This document shows positions 39,380-47,293 of a stretch of DNA of 64,000 nucleotides, in pieces. Every line of letters starts with the position of its first letter. The first letter of the stretch is position 1. Below the pieces are notes generated by a model. It worked only from the letters and a program-made list of their open reading frames with translations, was not told the DNA's origin and searched no databases. The stretch lies in contig JACNKP010000062.1 of assembly GCA_014381985.1 (NCBI GenBank), forward strand, positions 1 through 64,000, given 5' to 3'. The stretch comes from SAR92 clade bacterium (GTDB lineage Bacteria; Pseudomonadota; Gammaproteobacteria; Pseudomonadales; Porticoccaceae). Both the position numbers and the translations under genes were made by a program.

Positions 39380-41125
39380 TTATAGCTGTGTTTCGATCCA
39401 CTTGTCCATTCGTTTATCAAGCACATCCATAGGCAGAGCGCCTTTCACATGAAGTTGATCATGAAACGCACGTAGATCAAATTTAGAGCCGAGTTTCTTC
39501 GTTGCGCGTGCGCGTAGTTCTTTGAATTTTAATTCACCAATCTTATAAGCGAGAGCCTGGGCTGGCCACGAAATATAGCGGTCTATCTCGACCTCTATAT
39601 CATGCAGGCTTTTGGCCGTATTGTTGGCGAAATAGTCAATTGCCTTTTGACGGTTCCAGTCAAACATGTGCATGCCGGTGTCAACGACGAGGCGCACGGC
39701 ACGCCACATTTCATAGGTTAATTGGCCAAATTTGCTGTAGGGGTCGGTGTAAAACCCCATTTCTACGCCTAGACTTTCGGCGTAGAGCCCCCAGCCCTCG
39801 ACAAATCCGGGGTAACTCAAATTTTGTAATAGGGGATGAGTTTCAGGTAGTTCTTGTGCCAGCGATATTTGCAGATGGTGCCCAGGCATGGCCTCATGCA
39901 GTGTTAATGCCTCCATTTCCCAGGTCGGACGTGTGTTCAGGGCATATGTATTAGCGTAAAAATACCCAGGTCTCCCATCTTTACTAGAGCCGCCCCAGTA
40001 GTATGCCGTGGTTTGAGATTTAGCCGCATAGGCAGGGATGGGAATTACGCCATAAGGCATCCGGGGGAGTTTGCCAAATAGTTTAGCTAATTCAGGATCC
40101 GCTCTCTTGGCAATGTCTCTGTAGCCAACCATAAGATCATCTGCCGACGTCATGTAGAACTGCGGATCAGTGCGCAGAAAATGAGTGAACTCGCCGAAGG
40201 TACCGTCAAAGCCTGACGCGGAAATTACCTTATCCATTTCTTTGCGAATACGTTTGACCTCAGAAAGGCCTAGCTGATGAATTTGCTTTGGCGTTAGATC
40301 GGAGGTGGTAAAGGTTTTTGCTCGATGACGATACCAGGCTGCTCCATTTGGCATGTCAATAAGAGCAATTGACGCATTGGAATTCGGGATGTAGTCATCT
40401 TCAAGAAAATGAAGAAGGCTTTCAAAAGCGGGGTAAATTTTCTGCTTGATAATTTGCCGGGCACGGGCTGTTATTTTCTCTTGTTCAGCCTGATCAATAC
40501 TGTCTGGGAAGCCACTAAAACTAGTGAGTAATGGACTTTTGTCTATGTCTGTGGGGATTGTATTGCGGATTTGTTCGGGCACATCACGCAGAGTTATCTG
40601 TGGTGGTGTAATACCCCTAGCTAGCCCCTCTCGCAGCACCTCGATCGTACTCAGAATATAACTTTCAGCGTTTTCTAGCCTTGCTAGGCGATCTTTAAAA
40701 TCCTGGTGACTAAATTTCGGCATCATTGAAAGAGTGTCGGCAATATCTTGTTGCACACCTGTGCGCTGATGAACCAAGATGAACTGCTCTGGATAGGCTT
40801 GTCCAGCGACCTCGTCTGAAAGGCTTTTCTCAACTAGCATCCATTCTAAATATCGATCTTTGTCTAGTTTTTCAGTATCAACTGACCTCAACTGCCTTAA
40901 TAACTCTTTCCGCTGGGCAGCATTTTTAGCATGTGCCACTAGAGACGGGTCGGGCCATAGCGAATTTTGCCCTGGATACCCGACATAGGTAGCGTAAGTT
41001 GGATTGCTGATCATGGTTTGATGCCAAATGTCATCAAACAACACAGTTAGTCTTTCTTCTACTGAAGGGCTTGCTGATAAGTTGAATGACAGCAGTAGAA
41101 ATAGTGCAAAGCTTAGTGATTTCAT
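39380..41125 (-). CDS. DUF885-family secreted putative metallopeptidase (copy 1)
   Basis: A 581-residue exported protein: a signal peptide (residues 1-18, ending NLSASP) followed by an all-helical DUF885 domain. The conserved motif HEAMPGHHLQ (410-419) and EGWGLYAE (443-450) resemble a gluzincin zinc site with a downstream Glu, though spacing differs from classical HExxH. RPGYFYANTY precedes it. It lies 14 bases after a paralogue with the same motif order and is likely co-transcribed. Peptidase activity is inferred. Confidence 0.85.
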   Translation of the reverse strand: MKSLSFALFLLLSFNLSASPSVEERLTVLFDDIWHQTMISNPTYATYVGYPGQNSLWPDPSLVAHAKNAAQRKELLRQLRSVDTEKLDKDRYLEWMLVEKSLSDEVAGQAYPEQFILVHQRTGVQQDIADTLSMMPKFSHQDFKDRLARLENAESYILSTIEVLREGLARGITPPQITLRDVPEQIRNTIPTDIDKSPLLTSFSGFPDSIDQAEQEKITARARQIIKQKIYPAFESLLHFLEDDYIPNSNASIALIDMPNGAAWYRHRAKTFTTSDLTPKQIHQLGLSEVKRIRKEMDKVISASGFDGTFGEFTHFLRTDPQFYMTSADDLMVGYRDIAKRADPELAKLFGKLPRMPYGVIPIPAYAAKSQTTAYYWGGSSKDGRPGYFYANTYALNTRPTWEMEALTLHEAMPGHHLQISLAQELPETHPLLQNLSYPGFVEGWGLYAESLGVEMGFYTDPYSKFGQLTYEMWRAVRLVVDTGMHMFDWNRQKAIDYFANNTAKSLHDIEVEIDRYISWPAQALAYKIGELKFKELRARATKKLGSKFDLRAFHDQLHVKGALPMDVLDKRMDKWIETQL

Positions 41126-41139
41126 TATTTTAACGCTCT

Positions 41140-42945
41140 TTATAAGGTTGTCTTAGCAATCCATTTGTTAACATTTTCTTCAAGGATAGGTAGGGGAATT
41201 GAACCATCTCTAAGTACCACGTCATGAAACTGGCGAATATCAAATTTGTTGCCCAATGATTGCTTCGCTATTCGCCTCAATTCCTGAATTTTCAGCATCC
41301 CGATCTTGTAAGCAGTAGCCTGAGATGGCATGACGATGTACCGTTCTATTTGACGTACGTTATAGCTACTAGAATTCGGAACGTTACTATTCATGTACTT
41401 AAGTGCCTTTTCGCGAGTCCAGCGCTTAGCATGAATTCCGGTATCGACTACCAGTCGACAGGCCCGGTATAGCTCCCCAGAAAGTCGCCCAAAATCCGAG
41501 TACGGATCCTCATATAAGCCAATTTCTTTTGGTACTGATTCAGAGTAGAGGCCCCAACCCTCACTGAAGACTGTGTAGCCTCCAAAGAGTCTGAATTTGG
41601 GCATATTCTGAAGTTCCTGTGCAATCGATATCTGCATGTGATGTCCAGGAATACCCTCATGATAGGCTAATGCTTCCATGTTATATTTGGACATGTCACT
41701 CATTTTATACAGGTTAGCAAAGTATGTTCCCGGACGACTGCCGTCGGGTGCGGGGCTTTGATAGAACGCTTGACCAGCCGAGGCTTCACGAAATGCCTCC
41801 ACCGCTTTTACCACGAGATCAGCTTTAGGTTTTGTGATAAATAGCTCATCCAAACGTGATTTCATGGTGTCAATGAATAGCGTTGCCTGATCTAAGTATG
41901 CTTGCTTACCTGCTGCAGTATCTGGATAGTAGAATTGAGGATCATTACGCATAAAATCGAAGAAGGCCTGTAGATCACCGTCAAATTTAACTCGCCTCAT
42001 GATTCTGCGCATTTCTGTTTGAATACGTGCAACTTCTTCAAGGCCCAAATTATGGATTTGGTCAGCTGTGAGATCAGTCGTGGTGGTGCGCTTTAGGGCA
42101 AAGTTATAAAAATCGCCTCCTTCAGGAAATTTCCAAACGCCATCATCATTGGTGGCACTGTGTTGTAAGTTGGTTAGGTATTTATGGAGCTTTCTATAGC
42201 CGGGAGCAAGGTAATCTTCAAGGGCTGCTTTTGCAGTAGCCACTAGCTCTTCTTTTTCGGCCTCTGCAATATCCAGAGCAGCTACTTTTCGTCTAAAATC
42301 AGCCAGTATGGTGCTATCTGCACCTTCGCTAAAAGGTATGCCCGTCATAATGTTTTCTATGGATTTTAGGGCTAAGGGGAAAACGAATTTAGGCGGCAAT
42401 ATGCCCTTACTATCGCGGATTCTAATTTCAGTAATCAGTTGGTCTAAGAGCGTAGATGAATTGACGATTCTGTGAATATACGCCTGGGCTTCTTCGACGT
42501 TAGCGATGAGATGTTGGTTGATTAAAAATGAAGGGATCATACTATGGGCGCCCCGCATTTGATTAACTGGATAGCTGTGGTATCGCCATTTATCGCCTTC
42601 TATTTGCAGAGTCGCCTGTTGGATAAACATCTTTACACTTAGTTTGGTAGCCTCATCAACATGAGCTAAATCAAGTCTCCTGACTTTTTCTAGATGTTCA
42701 CGGGTCATTTCCATGCTGGCATCTCTGGCTTTATCAGAAATATCGTTCCACTCGCCGTATCGATCTCGCAGGCCTAAATAGGTCAGTGATTGTGGACTTT
42801 GTTGCAGCTCTTCCATGAACAGTACATCGAGGAATTCGTTAACTTCTGTAGACCCCATTTTTACAGATGTCTCTGGCGTCTTTTCACAGCCATTGATTAA
42901 CAGCATGCATATGAGGGTTAAGAGTGGAATCAATATTTTTTTCAT
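41140..42945 (-). CDS. DUF885-family lipoprotein, putative metallopeptidase (copy 2)
   Basis: A 601-residue paralogue of the next gene. It has a lipoprotein signal with lipobox LINGC near residue 20, so it is attached to a membrane while its partner appears soluble. The motifs HEGIPGHHMQ, EGWGLYSE, RPGTYFANLY and VVDTGIHAKRWTREKAL align with copy 1. First gene of the two-gene unit; it faces away from the TPP-riboswitch operon. Function is likely periplasmic peptide hydrolysis, by inference from motif and export. Confidence 0.85.
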   Translation of the reverse strand: MKKILIPLLTLICMLLINGCEKTPETSVKMGSTEVNEFLDVLFMEELQQSPQSLTYLGLRDRYGEWNDISDKARDASMEMTREHLEKVRRLDLAHVDEATKLSVKMFIQQATLQIEGDKWRYHSYPVNQMRGAHSMIPSFLINQHLIANVEEAQAYIHRIVNSSTLLDQLITEIRIRDSKGILPPKFVFPLALKSIENIMTGIPFSEGADSTILADFRRKVAALDIAEAEKEELVATAKAALEDYLAPGYRKLHKYLTNLQHSATNDDGVWKFPEGGDFYNFALKRTTTTDLTADQIHNLGLEEVARIQTEMRRIMRRVKFDGDLQAFFDFMRNDPQFYYPDTAAGKQAYLDQATLFIDTMKSRLDELFITKPKADLVVKAVEAFREASAGQAFYQSPAPDGSRPGTYFANLYKMSDMSKYNMEALAYHEGIPGHHMQISIAQELQNMPKFRLFGGYTVFSEGWGLYSESVPKEIGLYEDPYSDFGRLSGELYRACRLVVDTGIHAKRWTREKALKYMNSNVPNSSSYNVRQIERYIVMPSQATAYKIGMLKIQELRRIAKQSLGNKFDIRQFHDVVLRDGSIPLPILEENVNKWIAKTTL

Positions 42946-43039
42946 TGTGTGGCCCTATTTACTAATTACATTGATGCTTGGTAGATCAATATTAGACTAG
43001 ATACTGATGTTGTTACAGTCGATGACCATGTTACTATGC

Positions 43040-43122
43040 AGATTCCTAAGGGGCGGTTAATCTTTGTTAACCTGAGAGGTACCCTTTGAACCTGATCCGG
43101 ATTATGCCGGCGTAGGAATAGG
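43040..43122 (+). promoter_or_regulatory. TPP riboswitch (THI element)
   Basis: The conserved THI-box is clear: CTGAGAGGTACCC (43072-43084) followed by TTGAACCTGATCCGG and ATGCCGGCGTAGG. The outer stem forms between ATTCCT near 43042 and AGGAAT at 43114-43119. It senses thiamine diphosphate and would switch off the downstream TonB receptor operon when TPP is plentiful. The expression platform probably lies in 43125-43185; I did not resolve whether it acts on transcription or on the ribosome site GAGG near 43182. Confidence 0.96.
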
Positions 43123-43190
43123 ATACGTTTTACCGCCTTTACTCCGTCTTTTGATTCCGGGTCTCCTTAACTACCGTTATTGAGGCTCTT

Positions 43191-45314
43191 ATGTATTTCT
43201 ACCGCACAATGCGTAACAAAACTGACGCCAACTATATTGGCACTTTAGTTAAAAATCTATCCCTTATTATCTTGATCTGCGGGTCACCTTTGGCTGCGGC
43301 TGATAAGGAGATTGAAGAGGTCATAGTCACCTCAGAGTTTCGTAACGCAACTTTGCTAGATACTGCCGCTAGCATAACCATTTTTGATGATTCAATAATT
43401 AAAAACCGTCAGGCCAAGCATTTAGAAGAACTGTTAAATTTGGCGCCCAATGTAAATTTTTCAAGCGGAGCATCAAGAGGTCGTTTCATTCAAATACGCG
43501 GTATCGGTGAGCGCAGTCAATTTATAGAACCCCTTAATCCTTCCGTAGGCATTCTGGTCGACGGCATCGACTTCACTGGCATTGCGGGTGCAGCGACAAC
43601 TATGGATATCAAGCAAGTTGAAATACTGCGTGGGCCACAGGGCACTTTGTACGGCGCTAATGCATTGGCAGGTCTTATTAACCTTACCTCTAACCAGCCT
43701 ACTGAAAATGCTCAAGGTAAACTCTCACTGGCCATTGGAAGTCACAACACTAAGACAATGGCGGGGGCGATGGGTGGTTCCTTGAGTAGTGATGTGAATT
43801 ATCGCGTCGCGGTACAAAGTCACACCAGCGATGGATATATAACTAATGATTTTTTGATAAAAGATGACACAGATAATATTGATGAACTCAGTTTACGTGC
43901 GATTTTTGATTGGCAGGCAAGTGACGACCTTAGCCTCAAGTTAACTCTGTTTCGTGTTGATGCGGATAATGGATATGACGCCTTTTCTCTAGATAATACG
44001 CGCAATACTCTTTCTGATAAGCCTGGCCATGACCGTCAAGAGTCTTCTGCAGTTGCTTTACACAGTAACTGGCAGGCAAATGAGCAGTTTGATGTGGTTA
44101 GTTTGATTAGCTTTGCCGATAGTGACCTTGAGTATGGTTATGACGAAGACTGGGCCTTCCCTGCAATATGCGCCGGGCAAGAGTGTGATGGGTGGGAATA
44201 CAATTCAGAAGATAACTATTTGCGTGACCGAGATAACAGTACCCTTGATGTTAAATTAGTCTCCAAAAAGCCGGTAAGTTTGTTGGGCCGACATGCCGAC
44301 TGGGTGTTCGGTGTTTATGCTCGCCAGCAAGACGAGCAACTCTTGCGCCAGTACACCTATAACGCCAGTGACTTTAGCAGCAATTTTGATACTAAAAATC
44401 GAGCGATCTACGGTCAATTGGATATTGATATCGCCTCTGACTTAAGTTTTATTGCCGGCTTAAGGTTGGAGGGTCGAAAGGCAACCTACAATGATAGTGA
44501 TGGCGTGGATCACAGTGTTGATGAGAATCTGTGGGGTGGGCGTATTGCGCTCCAATATAAACTCGATGACAGTACTATGGTTTATGGTCTGGTATCGCGA
44601 GGCTACAAAGCGGGGGGTGTAAATAGTGACTCGTCGCTGTCCGCGCAAGACCGTGAATTTGACACAGAGCTTATGTGGAACTTCGAGACAGGGTTTAAAG
44701 GAAGTTGGTTTGAACAGCGACTGCAGACACGAGTTTCGGTGTTTTACCAGCAGCGCAAAGACATTCAGATTAAACAGTCACTTGTTCAATCCAGAGATGA
44801 CAGTAATGCCAGTGACTTCACCGATTATTTTGGAAACTCGGGCAAAGGGAGCAATTACGGAATGGAAGTCGAAGTCAATTGGCTAGCCTCGGAAGTACTC
44901 TCGGTTCAGGGTTCTCTGGGTTTATTGGAGACTGACTATGACACTCCACTGTCAGCCACCTTAGATCGTCGAGATCAGGCTCATGCGCCACTTTATCAGT
45001 TTGCGCTGGGCGCTAGCCTGCAGGTTAGTGAAAACCTTATTTGGACAGCTGATATTGAAGGAAAGGACAAGTTTTACCTGTCCTCTAGTCACGACGAGCA
45101 GTCTGAGTCGTACTGGCTACTAAATACCAATTTAGCGTATATCGCAGATCAATGGTCTTTGTCTGTTTGGGGTCGCAACCTCACTGACGAGGATGTGATC
45201 GTTCGTGGGTTCGGCGGGTTTGGAAATGATCCGAGGAAATACTATGCTACTGAGCCTTACTATCAGCTTGGTGAGCCGCGGACTTTTGGTGTTAGTGGGC
45301 AGTATAATTTTTAA
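43191..45314 (+). CDS. TonB-dependent outer-membrane receptor, probably for thiamine
   Basis: A 707-residue receptor: signal sequence (to about residue 37, PLAAA), TonB box EEVIVTS (42-48), plug domain with IQIRGIGERSQF, VGILVDGID, VEILRGPQGTLYGANALAGLINL, then a beta-barrel ending in the aromatic-terminated FGVSGQYNF. The plug resembles FecA/BtuB-type siderophore and cofactor receptors. The TPP riboswitch upstream and the three genes downstream give the substrate: thiamine or a close derivative. Direct ligand evidence is absent. Confidence 0.9.
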   Translation: MYFYRTMRNKTDANYIGTLVKNLSLIILICGSPLAAADKEIEEVIVTSEFRNATLLDTAASITIFDDSIIKNRQAKHLEELLNLAPNVNFSSGASRGRFIQIRGIGERSQFIEPLNPSVGILVDGIDFTGIAGAATTMDIKQVEILRGPQGTLYGANALAGLINLTSNQPTENAQGKLSLAIGSHNTKTMAGAMGGSLSSDVNYRVAVQSHTSDGYITNDFLIKDDTDNIDELSLRAIFDWQASDDLSLKLTLFRVDADNGYDAFSLDNTRNTLSDKPGHDRQESSAVALHSNWQANEQFDVVSLISFADSDLEYGYDEDWAFPAICAGQECDGWEYNSEDNYLRDRDNSTLDVKLVSKKPVSLLGRHADWVFGVYARQQDEQLLRQYTYNASDFSSNFDTKNRAIYGQLDIDIASDLSFIAGLRLEGRKATYNDSDGVDHSVDENLWGGRIALQYKLDDSTMVYGLVSRGYKAGGVNSDSSLSAQDREFDTELMWNFETGFKGSWFEQRLQTRVSVFYQQRKDIQIKQSLVQSRDDSNASDFTDYFGNSGKGSNYGMEVEVNWLASEVLSVQGSLGLLETDYDTPLSATLDRRDQAHAPLYQFALGASLQVSENLIWTADIEGKDKFYLSSSHDEQSESYWLLNTNLAYIADQWSLSVWGRNLTDEDVIVRGFGGFGNDPRKYYATEPYYQLGEPRTFGVSGQYNF

Positions 45315-45343
45315 ATTTCATCGATTAATCTGAGGTAAGTGTG

Positions 45344-45592
45344 ATGCAAGTTACTATTGATATCAGTATGTACCCCAACCGGGAGGAATTTATTCCTCCC
45401 ATTGATGGCTTTATTGAAAAGATTAATCGCTTTGAATATCTTAAAATCAGCACCTTTCCTACCAGCACCGTGGTTCAGGGTGAGTATGAGCATGCGATGA
45501 AGGCCGTCCAGGATACTATTTCTGCCTGTTACCATGAATATAATATGGCAGTGTACGTCGCTAAAATTATTCCCGGTTACGAGGCGCTGTAA
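45344..45592 (+). CDS. YkoF/MTH1187-type small protein, candidate thiamine binder
   Basis: An 82-residue protein with the ferredoxin-like fold of the MTH1187/YkoF (DUF77) family: MQVTIDISMYPNREEF at the start, FEYLKISTFPTSTVVQGEYE, and an ending VYVAKIIPGYEAL. YkoF of Bacillus binds thiamine or its pyrimidine part. GAGG lies eight bases before ATG 45344 (GTG 45341 is also possible). It lies between the TonB receptor and the transporter; no signal peptide is visible, so it acts in the cytoplasm. Confidence 0.82.
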   Translation: MQVTIDISMYPNREEFIPPIDGFIEKINRFEYLKISTFPTSTVVQGEYEHAMKAVQDTISACYHEYNMAVYVAKIIPGYEAL

Positions 45593-46183
45593 GTGAGTTT
45601 AGATTGGGTTAATCTCGAAACATTGGCGGTGGCTTTGGGTGTCGCTTATCTTGTGCTTGCGATGCGTGAAAACAGCCTCTGTTGGTACTGTGCTTTTTTT
45701 AGTACTGCACTCTATGTGTGGATATTTGGCGATGTCAGCCTGTACATGGAGTCGGCGCTTAATGTGTATTACATGGGCATGGCGATTTATGGTTGGTTTC
45801 AATGGCAGCGAGGCGGGGTTAATCATGAAGGGTTAGACATTATTCGCTGGACTGCCAAACAGCATGGTTTGGCTATTTCTGCAATAGTACTCGCGGCCTT
45901 AGTATCAGGTTACTTGTTATCAATAGGCACTGATGCAAAGTTGCCTTATATGGATTCCTTAACTACCTGGGGCAGTATACTGACAACTGTGATGGTAGCG
46001 CGAAAGGTATTAGAAAATTGGTTGTACTGGATTGTAATTAATAGTATTTCGATTTACCTGTACCTCGACCGCGGCCTAGAGCAAACAGCGGCAATGTTCA
46101 TGCTGTATTTGGTGTTAGCGACAATGGGTTATTATGCTTGGAGAAAAAAATATGCTGGGCAGAACAGAGACATTATTAAATAA
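45593..46183 (+). CDS. pnuT: PnuC-family transporter, likely thiamine-specific (PnuT)
   Basis: A 196-residue inner-membrane protein with about seven hydrophobic segments and the family stretch NSLCWYCAFFSTALYVWIFGDVSLYMESALNVYYMGMAIYGW. PnuC relatives carry vitamins such as nicotinamide riboside by facilitated diffusion and rely on intracellular phosphorylation; PnuT members of TPP-riboswitch operons carry thiamine. The start is GTG 45593, directly after the upstream stop. The 3' end overlaps the kinase gene by 32 bases. Confidence 0.85.
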   Translation: MSLDWVNLETLAVALGVAYLVLAMRENSLCWYCAFFSTALYVWIFGDVSLYMESALNVYYMGMAIYGWFQWQRGGVNHEGLDIIRWTAKQHGLAISAIVLAALVSGYLLSIGTDAKLPYMDSLTTWGSILTTVMVARKVLENWLYWIVINSISIYLYLDRGLEQTAAMFMLYLVLATMGYYAWRKKYAGQNRDIIK

Positions 46184-46928
46184 GACGCTTGCGCATTGGC
46201 GTGAGTGGTCAATGGTCAGCGAGAATACACCTACAAAGCAGCCTCAGGTGATTGCGCAGCTAACTGGAGGATTGACTAATCAGTCCTTTTTGGTCGGTAG
46301 GGGAGACTTTAAAGCTGTTGTAAGAATTAACTCATTTGATTCTGACTCTTTTGCTATTGATCGAGACCGCGAAACTCTGTTTTTGAATATGCTGCAGTCA
46401 ACTGGCTGTGTGCCTCGGCTTCTCTATGCCGATTCGGATACTCAAGTAACACAATTTCTTGGGGGCCGTTGTTTGACCGATAATGATTTAGCTAATCCTT
46501 CTCTTCGAGCAGAGGTGGAAGGCAGCCTTAAACAAATTCAGGCGATAATACTAGGCAATATGCCGAGAAGAAACTACTTAGAATATAGCCGGTCATACAG
46601 TGATCAGCTTAGTGGTTTTAGTGACTTAGAGGCAATAGAGAGAGCGGCTATGACTATAGATGAAGCGGACTGGCAACCTGTCATCAGCCATCATGATTTA
46701 TTATTTGAAAATATCCTTTATAACGATCAGGGGGTCTATTTCATTGACTGGGAATATGCTGCGCTGGGACATCCTCTCATTGACTATCTCAGGGTATTTG
46801 GCCCTAAGTATTGCACTAGTAAAGCTGATGCAGGTACTGTTGAGGCTCTTGTAGTCTTGCAACATGGCCTCACAAAACTCTGGCACGCCGTGAAGGGCAA
46901 CAATAAATCAGTTAGGGACATAAAATGA
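46152..46928 (+). CDS. Thiamine kinase-like aminoglycoside-phosphotransferase-fold protein
   Basis: A 258-residue kinase of the APH/choline-kinase fold. The N-terminal loop is LTGGLTNQSFLV, the catalytic motif SHHDLLFENIL (about 179-189), and the metal motif FIDWEYAALGHPLIDYL (about 197-213), which resembles ThiK of E. coli (DWEYA). ThiK phosphorylates thiamine. Chosen start: ATG 46152 with GGAG eight bases upstream, overlapping pnuT. Trapping imported vitamin as thiamine phosphate fits the PnuT mode of uptake. Similarity to other APH-fold kinases makes the exact substrate an inference. Confidence 0.8.
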   Translation: MLGRTETLLNKTLAHWREWSMVSENTPTKQPQVIAQLTGGLTNQSFLVGRGDFKAVVRINSFDSDSFAIDRDRETLFLNMLQSTGCVPRLLYADSDTQVTQFLGGRCLTDNDLANPSLRAEVEGSLKQIQAIILGNMPRRNYLEYSRSYSDQLSGFSDLEAIERAAMTIDEADWQPVISHHDLLFENILYNDQGVYFIDWEYAALGHPLIDYLRVFGPKYCTSKADAGTVEALVVLQHGLTKLWHAVKGNNKSVRDIK

Positions 46929-47293
46929 CAAAATCACTTAATAATTTGACACCAGAAGAGCAGTATGTGATCCAACAGAAAGGGACAGAGCGACCATTTC
47001 TGGGTGAGTATACTGATTGTTTTGATGGTGGACTGTACATTTGTAAACAGTGTGATACTCCACTCTATCGATCAGAGCACAAATTTCCATCTCACTGCGG
47101 CTGGCCTAGTTTTGATGACGAAATTATTGGGTCAGTGAGGCGTGAAACTGATGCTGATGGCCGACGAGTCGAGATACTTTGCGCCAACTGTGACGGCCAC
47201 CTTGGACATGTATTTACTGGCGAGGGTTACACCGATAAAAATATTCGCCACTGTGTTAATAGCATATCCATGAAGTTCATTTCGAGTGATTAA
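46925..47293 (+). CDS. msrB: Peptide-methionine (R)-S-oxide reductase
   Basis: MsrB reduces the R isomer of methionine sulfoxide in proteins. The 122-residue enzyme has GTERPFLGEYTDCFDGGLYICKQCDTPLY, the CGWPSFDDEI block, CANCDGHLGHVF zinc motif and the catalytic RHCVNSISMKF near the end. Both CxxC zinc pairs are present. The ATG overlaps the kinase stop by four bases, so it is translated with the thiamine operon, although its function differs. Confidence 0.95.
   Translation: MTKSLNNLTPEEQYVIQQKGTERPFLGEYTDCFDGGLYICKQCDTPLYRSEHKFPSHCGWPSFDDEIIGSVRRETDADGRRVEILCANCDGHLGHVFTGEGYTDKNIRHCVNSISMKFISSD

Follow-up and report, generated by a model that had tools for sequence, protein, structure and literature searches.

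The forward strand of the 64,000-nucleotide window analysed here (the whole stretch, positions 1 to 64,000 of contig JACNKP010000062.1 of a SAR92 clade bacterium, assembly GCA_014381985.1) carries a thiamine pyrophosphate (TPP) riboswitch followed by five tightly packed genes that code for a TonB-dependent outer-membrane receptor, a small YkoF-type protein, a PnuC-family permease, a kinase, and the methionine-R-sulfoxide reductase MsrB. With a probability of roughly 85%, this gene set is a single riboswitch-controlled operon through which a thiamine-auxotrophic marine bacterium of the SAR92 type acquires vitamin B1. From the observed riboswitch, gene order, conservation, folds, absence of biosynthetic genes, and presence of ThiL, we infer the mode of regulation, the cargo, the ligand of the small protein, and the substrate of the kinase as follows. 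At low TPP, the leader would free the ribosome-binding site and the gene set would be made; the receptor would carry thiamine over the outer membrane, the permease would balance its concentration across the inner membrane, and the small protein would bind it in the cytosol; the kinase would then convert thiamine to thiamine monophosphate (TMP), unable to leave the cell, and ThiL, encoded elsewhere, would convert TMP to TPP.

The aptamer (THI element, 43039..43135, + strand) is matched by the Rfam covariance model RF00059 over its full length (model positions 1-105) with 75.5 bits against a gathering threshold of 54.3 (E 4.5e-13), and it is the single copy found in the whole 2.5-Mb genome. Downstream of it, leader folding predicts a hairpin (43159..43188, + strand, GGGUCUC...GAGGCUC) that covers and pairs the GAGG ribosome-binding site ahead of the start codon of the receptor gene (ATG 43191), and each of the seven outer pairs of its arms is formed in 30 to 32 of the 32 leaders that were aligned (alignment A5) out of the 37 found by a pattern script. 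A terminator was rejected as the switch: no terminator-like site occurs on the + strand of the leader (43039-43190), the five sites found overall comparing with 4.4 expected, so that translational control is preferred. The hairpin is likely a translational off-switch of the receptor gene, an assignment that draws on conservation rather than on covariation.

The receptor (43191..45314, + strand, 707 amino acids) exceeds the Pfam cut-offs for both the Plug (PF07715, 66.7 bits) and the barrel (PF00593, 116 bits) domains, and it is proposed to be a thiamine receptor of the OMthi/Omr1 type. Its gene is separated by 29 nucleotides from the small gene, which is followed by pnuT with a spacing of 0 nucleotides; the kinase gene, read from the ATG at 46152, overlaps pnuT by 32 nucleotides, and msrB, starting at 46925, overlaps the end of the kinase gene (46928) by 4 nucleotides. 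The set ends at 47293, and a convergent yajQ-like gene (DUF520) comes next. The first-pass annotation had claimed a THI element, a TonB receptor, a YkoF-type small protein, and a PnuC-family permease, and had read each part as one step of import and trapping: the covariance, domain, profile, and fold matches bear out all four elements, and the functional reading is supported. Its four genes are all there, and a fifth member, msrB, had been overlooked; moreover, calling the operon “complete” was too strong, as the gene for ThiL is found on a different contig and the search did not extend to TonB/ExbBD.

Within the genus, made up of SAR92/HTCC2207-type Porticoccaceae, the order receptor-small gene-pnuT-kinase-msrB is kept wherever the contig reaches, specifically in 27 loci of 26 further genomes, plus one genome (G001) in which it spreads over two contigs, and msrB is present in all 28 genus loci that run past the kinase gene. 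Of the 35 genus genomes, 28 have a PnuT match, among them the one that holds the window (G000); in five of the seven genomes lacking a match, the riboswitch lies 0 to about 2,300 bases from the contig end towards which the genes run, so that pnuT would fall off the contig, and the remaining two are 71% and 75% complete, the riboswitch being likewise not found in them. Compared with its counterpart in the window, the small protein is 78-96% identical across the genus, MsrB 68-98%, PnuT 62-96%, and the kinase 34-92%, which suggests that constraint is strongest on the small protein and on MsrB among these four products and weakest on the kinase. The protein alignments comprised 28 of 29 available rows (A1, the truncated L085 being left out), 23 of 36 rows (A2), and 38 of 74 rows (A3), 34 of the 38 serving as fold input (A4). 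The receptor is split over two frames in L126 and L090, where the pieces were kept apart, and the kinase row of L090, a fragment of 7 amino acids, was dropped by the length filter. The text pattern used to mark riboswitches across loci is too strict for the genus, and its absent marks carry no meaning. At one locus (G043, L111:3592-4380), the receptor gene and pnuT are separated by a gene for a 2-oxoglutarate-Fe(II) oxygenase on the opposite strand.

The metabolic setting is given by the genome containing the window (2,516,332 bases in 82 contigs, 98.16% complete, 0.12% contaminated), in which profile searches returned no match to ThiC, ThiE, ThiG, thiamine pyrophosphokinase (TPK), or ThiB; ThiP and ThiQ were not sought. 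ThiL is encoded on a contig other than that of the operon (305 bits against a cut-off of 184). The first-pass annotation had seen no thi biosynthesis genes there and had called for a check of the whole genome, which likewise gave no match for ThiC, ThiE, ThiG, and ThiB; the cargo that it proposed, thiamine or a precursor, narrows to the former. With no ThiE, hydroxymethylpyrimidine (HMP) and thiazole cannot be joined, and the cargo should be thiamine or, if they are dephosphorylated outside, its phosphates; HMP or thiazole was accordingly rejected as a sufficient cargo, ThiG being unmatched as well. Intact thiamine is thus the likely cargo. Moreover, since ThiL is present and TPK is not matched, TMP must come from imported thiamine, which makes the operon kinase the evident candidate for its formation. 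A TPK route to TPP was discarded, PF04263 being matched in none of 36 genomes (23 from the genus) by a model that matched 7 of 14 control genomes, and an ABC thiamine transporter acting via ThiB was set aside as unmatched in this genome by a narrow model. Across the genus, ThiC occurs in one of 35 genomes (G001) and ThiE exceeds its cut-off in two of 35 (G001 and G018, the latter a fragment of 31 bits), and G001 is the only genome among those of the genus searched with full-length ThiG and ThiE, and with ThiC. On these genome contents, the genus probably depends on intact external thiamine, with no ThiE route to rebuild it from precursors.

The permease (45593..46183, + strand, 196 amino acids) matches PF04973 with 168 bits and, by profile, the PnuC structure 4qtn (E 9.6e-17). 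A TPP riboswitch and thiamine genes nearby provide the context of the PnuT branch, and the riboswitch argues for the thiamine branch of the PnuC family, so that it is proposed to be PnuT, with thiamine as its putative cargo. Downstream of the thiamine unit of one genome (G405, L223:6791-7174), matches to group II introns (RF01998, RF02001) were recorded. The kinase (46152..46928, + strand, 258 amino acids from the likelier start) has the APH/choline-kinase fold of small-molecule kinases and exceeds the Pfam cut-offs of PF01633 (59.2 bits) and PF01636 (48.4 bits). Its start is placed, as a judgement from the alignment, at the ATG at 46152, which follows GGAG and aligns with a methionine common to several relatives, and its H.D....N and DWE residues, which we take to be catalytic, are invariant in all 31 aligned rows. 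The protein probably does what ThiK does, though it is not classed as ThiK.

The small protein (45344..45592, + strand) is a single YkoF/MTH1187-type (Thiamine_BP) domain of 82 amino acids, presumed to be cytosolic. Its open reading frame spans 45341-45592, and the ATG at 45344 is judged from the alignment to be the likelier start, as relatives begin there with MQVTID or similar. PF01910 is matched at E<=0.01 by 35 of the 38 aligned members, and the profile built on the family finds YkoF as its best PDB match (E 0.0014). The structure model (pLDDT 90.3) has the fold of the superfamily: all 14 Foldseek matches with E<=0.001 belong to the YkoF/Thiamine_BP superfamily, and the structural matches include TM0486, SP2199, MJ1052, YBL001c, and MTH1187. 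YkoF itself is found by profile and is not among the fold matches listed, which is no evidence against the assignment. The protein of Bacillus subtilis has 200 amino acids against the single 82-residue domain found here, while the MTH1187/TM0486 relatives are single-domain like the window protein. The partner of YkoF is the ECF transporter YkoEDC; unlike it, the partner of the small protein would here be PnuT. Most likely, the small protein holds cytosolic thiamine by the pyrimidine moiety of the vitamin, acting as a sink or as a relay between the permease and the kinase.

The small gene lies within 300 nucleotides upstream of pnuT in 61 of the 73 loci from the contig search, and it adjoins pnuT in 45 of 49 distinct places, the window included, in the order search, which covered the gene contexts of 49 out of 99 matching genomes (the locus sets L119-L191 and L192-L241 share some genomes). 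In a genome of the same family (G141; L241 and L260:6629-12852), a TPP riboswitch heads thiC, thiO, thiG, a thiD-thiE fusion, and, as the last gene, a small YkoF-type gene, which ties the small protein to thiamine independently of pnuT. In SAR86-labelled loci the small gene stands apart from pnuT in 11 of 11, even though 10 of these 11 genomes encode PnuT; it is divergent from the riboswitch-receptor unit, or from its visible part, and not inside it, in four (L155, L171, L173, and L174), and no unit is in view in the other seven. A tie of the small protein to PnuT alone is ruled out by these two settings, and the protein thus belongs to thiamine handling in general. As side observations, the PnuT matches of two SAR86-labelled genomes (L249 and L253) contain one in-frame TAG each, which may reflect a sequencing error or gene decay; a small gene (74% identical) with pnuT lies on a contig labelled Bacteroidetes MAG (metagenome-assembled genome) Ww261 (L159), perhaps from a mis-binned member of the Porticoccaceae; and two distant relatives (L237 and L238) have no thiamine neighbour, the small gene of the former being preceded by a gamma-glutamyltranspeptidase gene and that of the latter by a gene that looks alike.

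The last gene of the set, msrB (46925..47293, + strand), codes for a methionine-R-sulfoxide reductase that matches SelR (PF01641) with 146 bits and the equivalog model PRK05508 with 204.7 bits against a cut-off of 179, and its cysteine motifs CGWPSF and RHCVNS are invariant in all 28 rows. The genome yields no other SelR match, and several members of the genus have a second one elsewhere. On the basis of its position, msrB is probably co-transcribed with the operon. TM0486, a relative of the small protein, is described as a thiamin-binding protein linked to oxidative conditions in the title of a cited paper, and this link, as far as a title conveys it, is suggestive only for a connection between msrB and thiamine.

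A number of observations weigh against this overall interpretation. The genome is a 98% draft, in which an absent gene might merely be unassembled, and the ThiB model is narrow, with only one of the 14 control genomes scoring above its cut-off. One genus genome (G001) has ThiC, ThiG, and ThiE on one 9.1-kb contig (L116, C232); its assembly is 80% complete and 4% contaminated, and the thi contig is either foreign DNA in the bin or the mark of a true prototroph. Five further genus genomes of 23 have partial and weak matches to the ThiG model (23-29 bits). In the leader, the stem owes its conservation largely to identical sequence, and a single pair shows a change on both sides; the fold of the whole leader is no stabler than that of shuffles (z -0.78; z -1.60 for the 78-nucleotide stretch that includes the hairpin), and the hairpin-ending leader pattern was not found in 8 of 44 loci, of which some are truncated by contig ends. 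Among the proteins, the small protein of the window scores 22.1 bits with PF01910, under the cut-off of 24.9. The kinase, which has the APH/choline kinase fold and motifs in common with Escherichia coli ThiK (YcfN), scores 71.3 bits with the thiK model TIGR02721 against a cut-off of 299.45; this is still its best NCBIfam match, and the GntI kinase model scores nearly equal (70.4 bits against a cut-off of 357). The “ThiK-like kinase” of the first-pass annotation is therefore retained by fold and context and fails by the curated cut-off. Lastly, the permease scores 70.8 bits with the PnuC equivalog TIGR01528 against a cut-off of 42.45, a model that, taken alone, denotes a nicotinamide riboside transporter, and the best PDB match of the kinase is choline kinase. 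Both of these last points would suit a system in which the permease and the kinase handle nicotinamide riboside or a different nucleoside-like vitamin, the TPP riboswitch being a bystander of the receptor only. Such a system is highly improbable, as the riboswitch is kept with the unit beyond the genus (RF00059 exceeds its cut-off in 17 of the 17 order-level sources in which a receptor and PnuT are both matched, 19 having been scanned), and as a genome that has no thiamine synthesis matches and one PnuT match only would require another thiamine route.

The acquisition of thiamine hence remains the preferred role of the operon, and alternatives were weighed for two of its members. Instead of binding a ligand for transport, the small protein could be a regulatory or stress protein of thiamine metabolism with no tie to the operon other than its position, a role that would agree with its separation from pnuT in the SAR86-labelled loci and with its closing position in the biosynthesis operon, and that does not conflict with thiamine acquisition; the direct abutment on pnuT in the window and the prevalent adjacency of the two genes argue against it and render it rather unlikely. 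As for msrB, the gene could be separate, with its own promoter and an accidental position after the kinase gene: no msrB start was found behind the kinase gene in 12 of the 58 loci with a small gene-pnuT-kinase row (five of the 12 are Porticoccus-labelled, and one, L170, has a partial match), and no msrB match was found in the 20 order-level loci L222-L241, while loci L192-L221, of about 3.2 kb each, are too short to judge. In the other 46 of these loci, however, the gap to the kinase gene is -17 to 49 nucleotides (median 3.5), which, together with the overlap in the window and the status of msrB as sole SelR match in the genome, leaves an independent msrB with somewhat less than an even chance. 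The promoter scan found about as many sites as in shuffles and so decides nothing on msrB.

Units of receptor, PnuT, and enzyme under TPP riboswitches are already known. According to the excerpts of PMC5613172, deletions of OMthi and PnuT in a Bacteroides thetaiotaomicron strain without thiamine synthesis raise its thiamine need, and OMthi-pnuT-tnr3 is one operon in most gut Bacteroidetes; this system (BT2390, BT2396-2397) resembles the one described here in having a TPP riboswitch, a TonB receptor, PnuT, and a thiamine enzyme. It differs in that tnr3, a “thiamine pyrophosphorylase” in the same excerpts, follows pnuT, whereas an APH/choline-kinase-type kinase is found here, with ThiL elsewhere and no TPK match, and in that the present operon adds a YkoF-type gene and msrB. 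PnuT of Shewanella woodyi, a PnuC-family protein like the permease described here, is cited as a thiamin transporter in the excerpts of PMC7749635 (citing Jaehme et al. 2018), with facilitated diffusion as its mechanism according to a reference title there. In marine plankton, MAG clusters of SAR86 and Flavobacteriales have omr1 close to a TPP riboswitch (excerpts of PMC10881298), which is the same receptor idea, and a term search of the retrieved text of that paper gave 0 hits for PnuT and 0 for SAR92; receptors adjoining PnuT had been noted as putative thiamin transporters in 2009 (excerpts of PMC2771747). In the portions of open-licence literature searched, no description of a receptor-YkoF-PnuT-kinase-msrB operon was found, and a role as cytosolic thiamine acceptor was found assigned to no PnuT system. 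What sets the present operon apart from the known ones is the YkoF-type gene and msrB.

On the opposite side of the riboswitch, a pair of neighbouring DUF885 proteins (548 and 595 bits) is encoded head to tail on the - strand (39380-42945), divergent from the operon, and a DUF885 match adjoins the operon in a number of genus loci. In one genus genome (G029; L102, C39), a second riboswitch leader is located at a contig end beside a DUF885 gene, being either a second copy or an assembly duplicate.

The core of the system is ordinary, and the small protein and the msrB tail are the parts worth a test. It is a speculative and rather improbable proposal that the small protein acts as a cytosolic thiamine acceptor that directs the passive flow through PnuT to the kinase and that, at the same time, the same TPP switch sets the only MsrB of the cell, tying the repair of oxidised methionine to the scarcity of vitamin B1. 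The small protein would offer a simple, single-domain case of a YkoF-family role next to a permease that lacks its own energy source; the msrB tail would offer a regulatory link that can be tested. SAR92-type bacteria are common coastal plankton, and the operon names the genes with which their probable dependence on intact thiamine may be tested.

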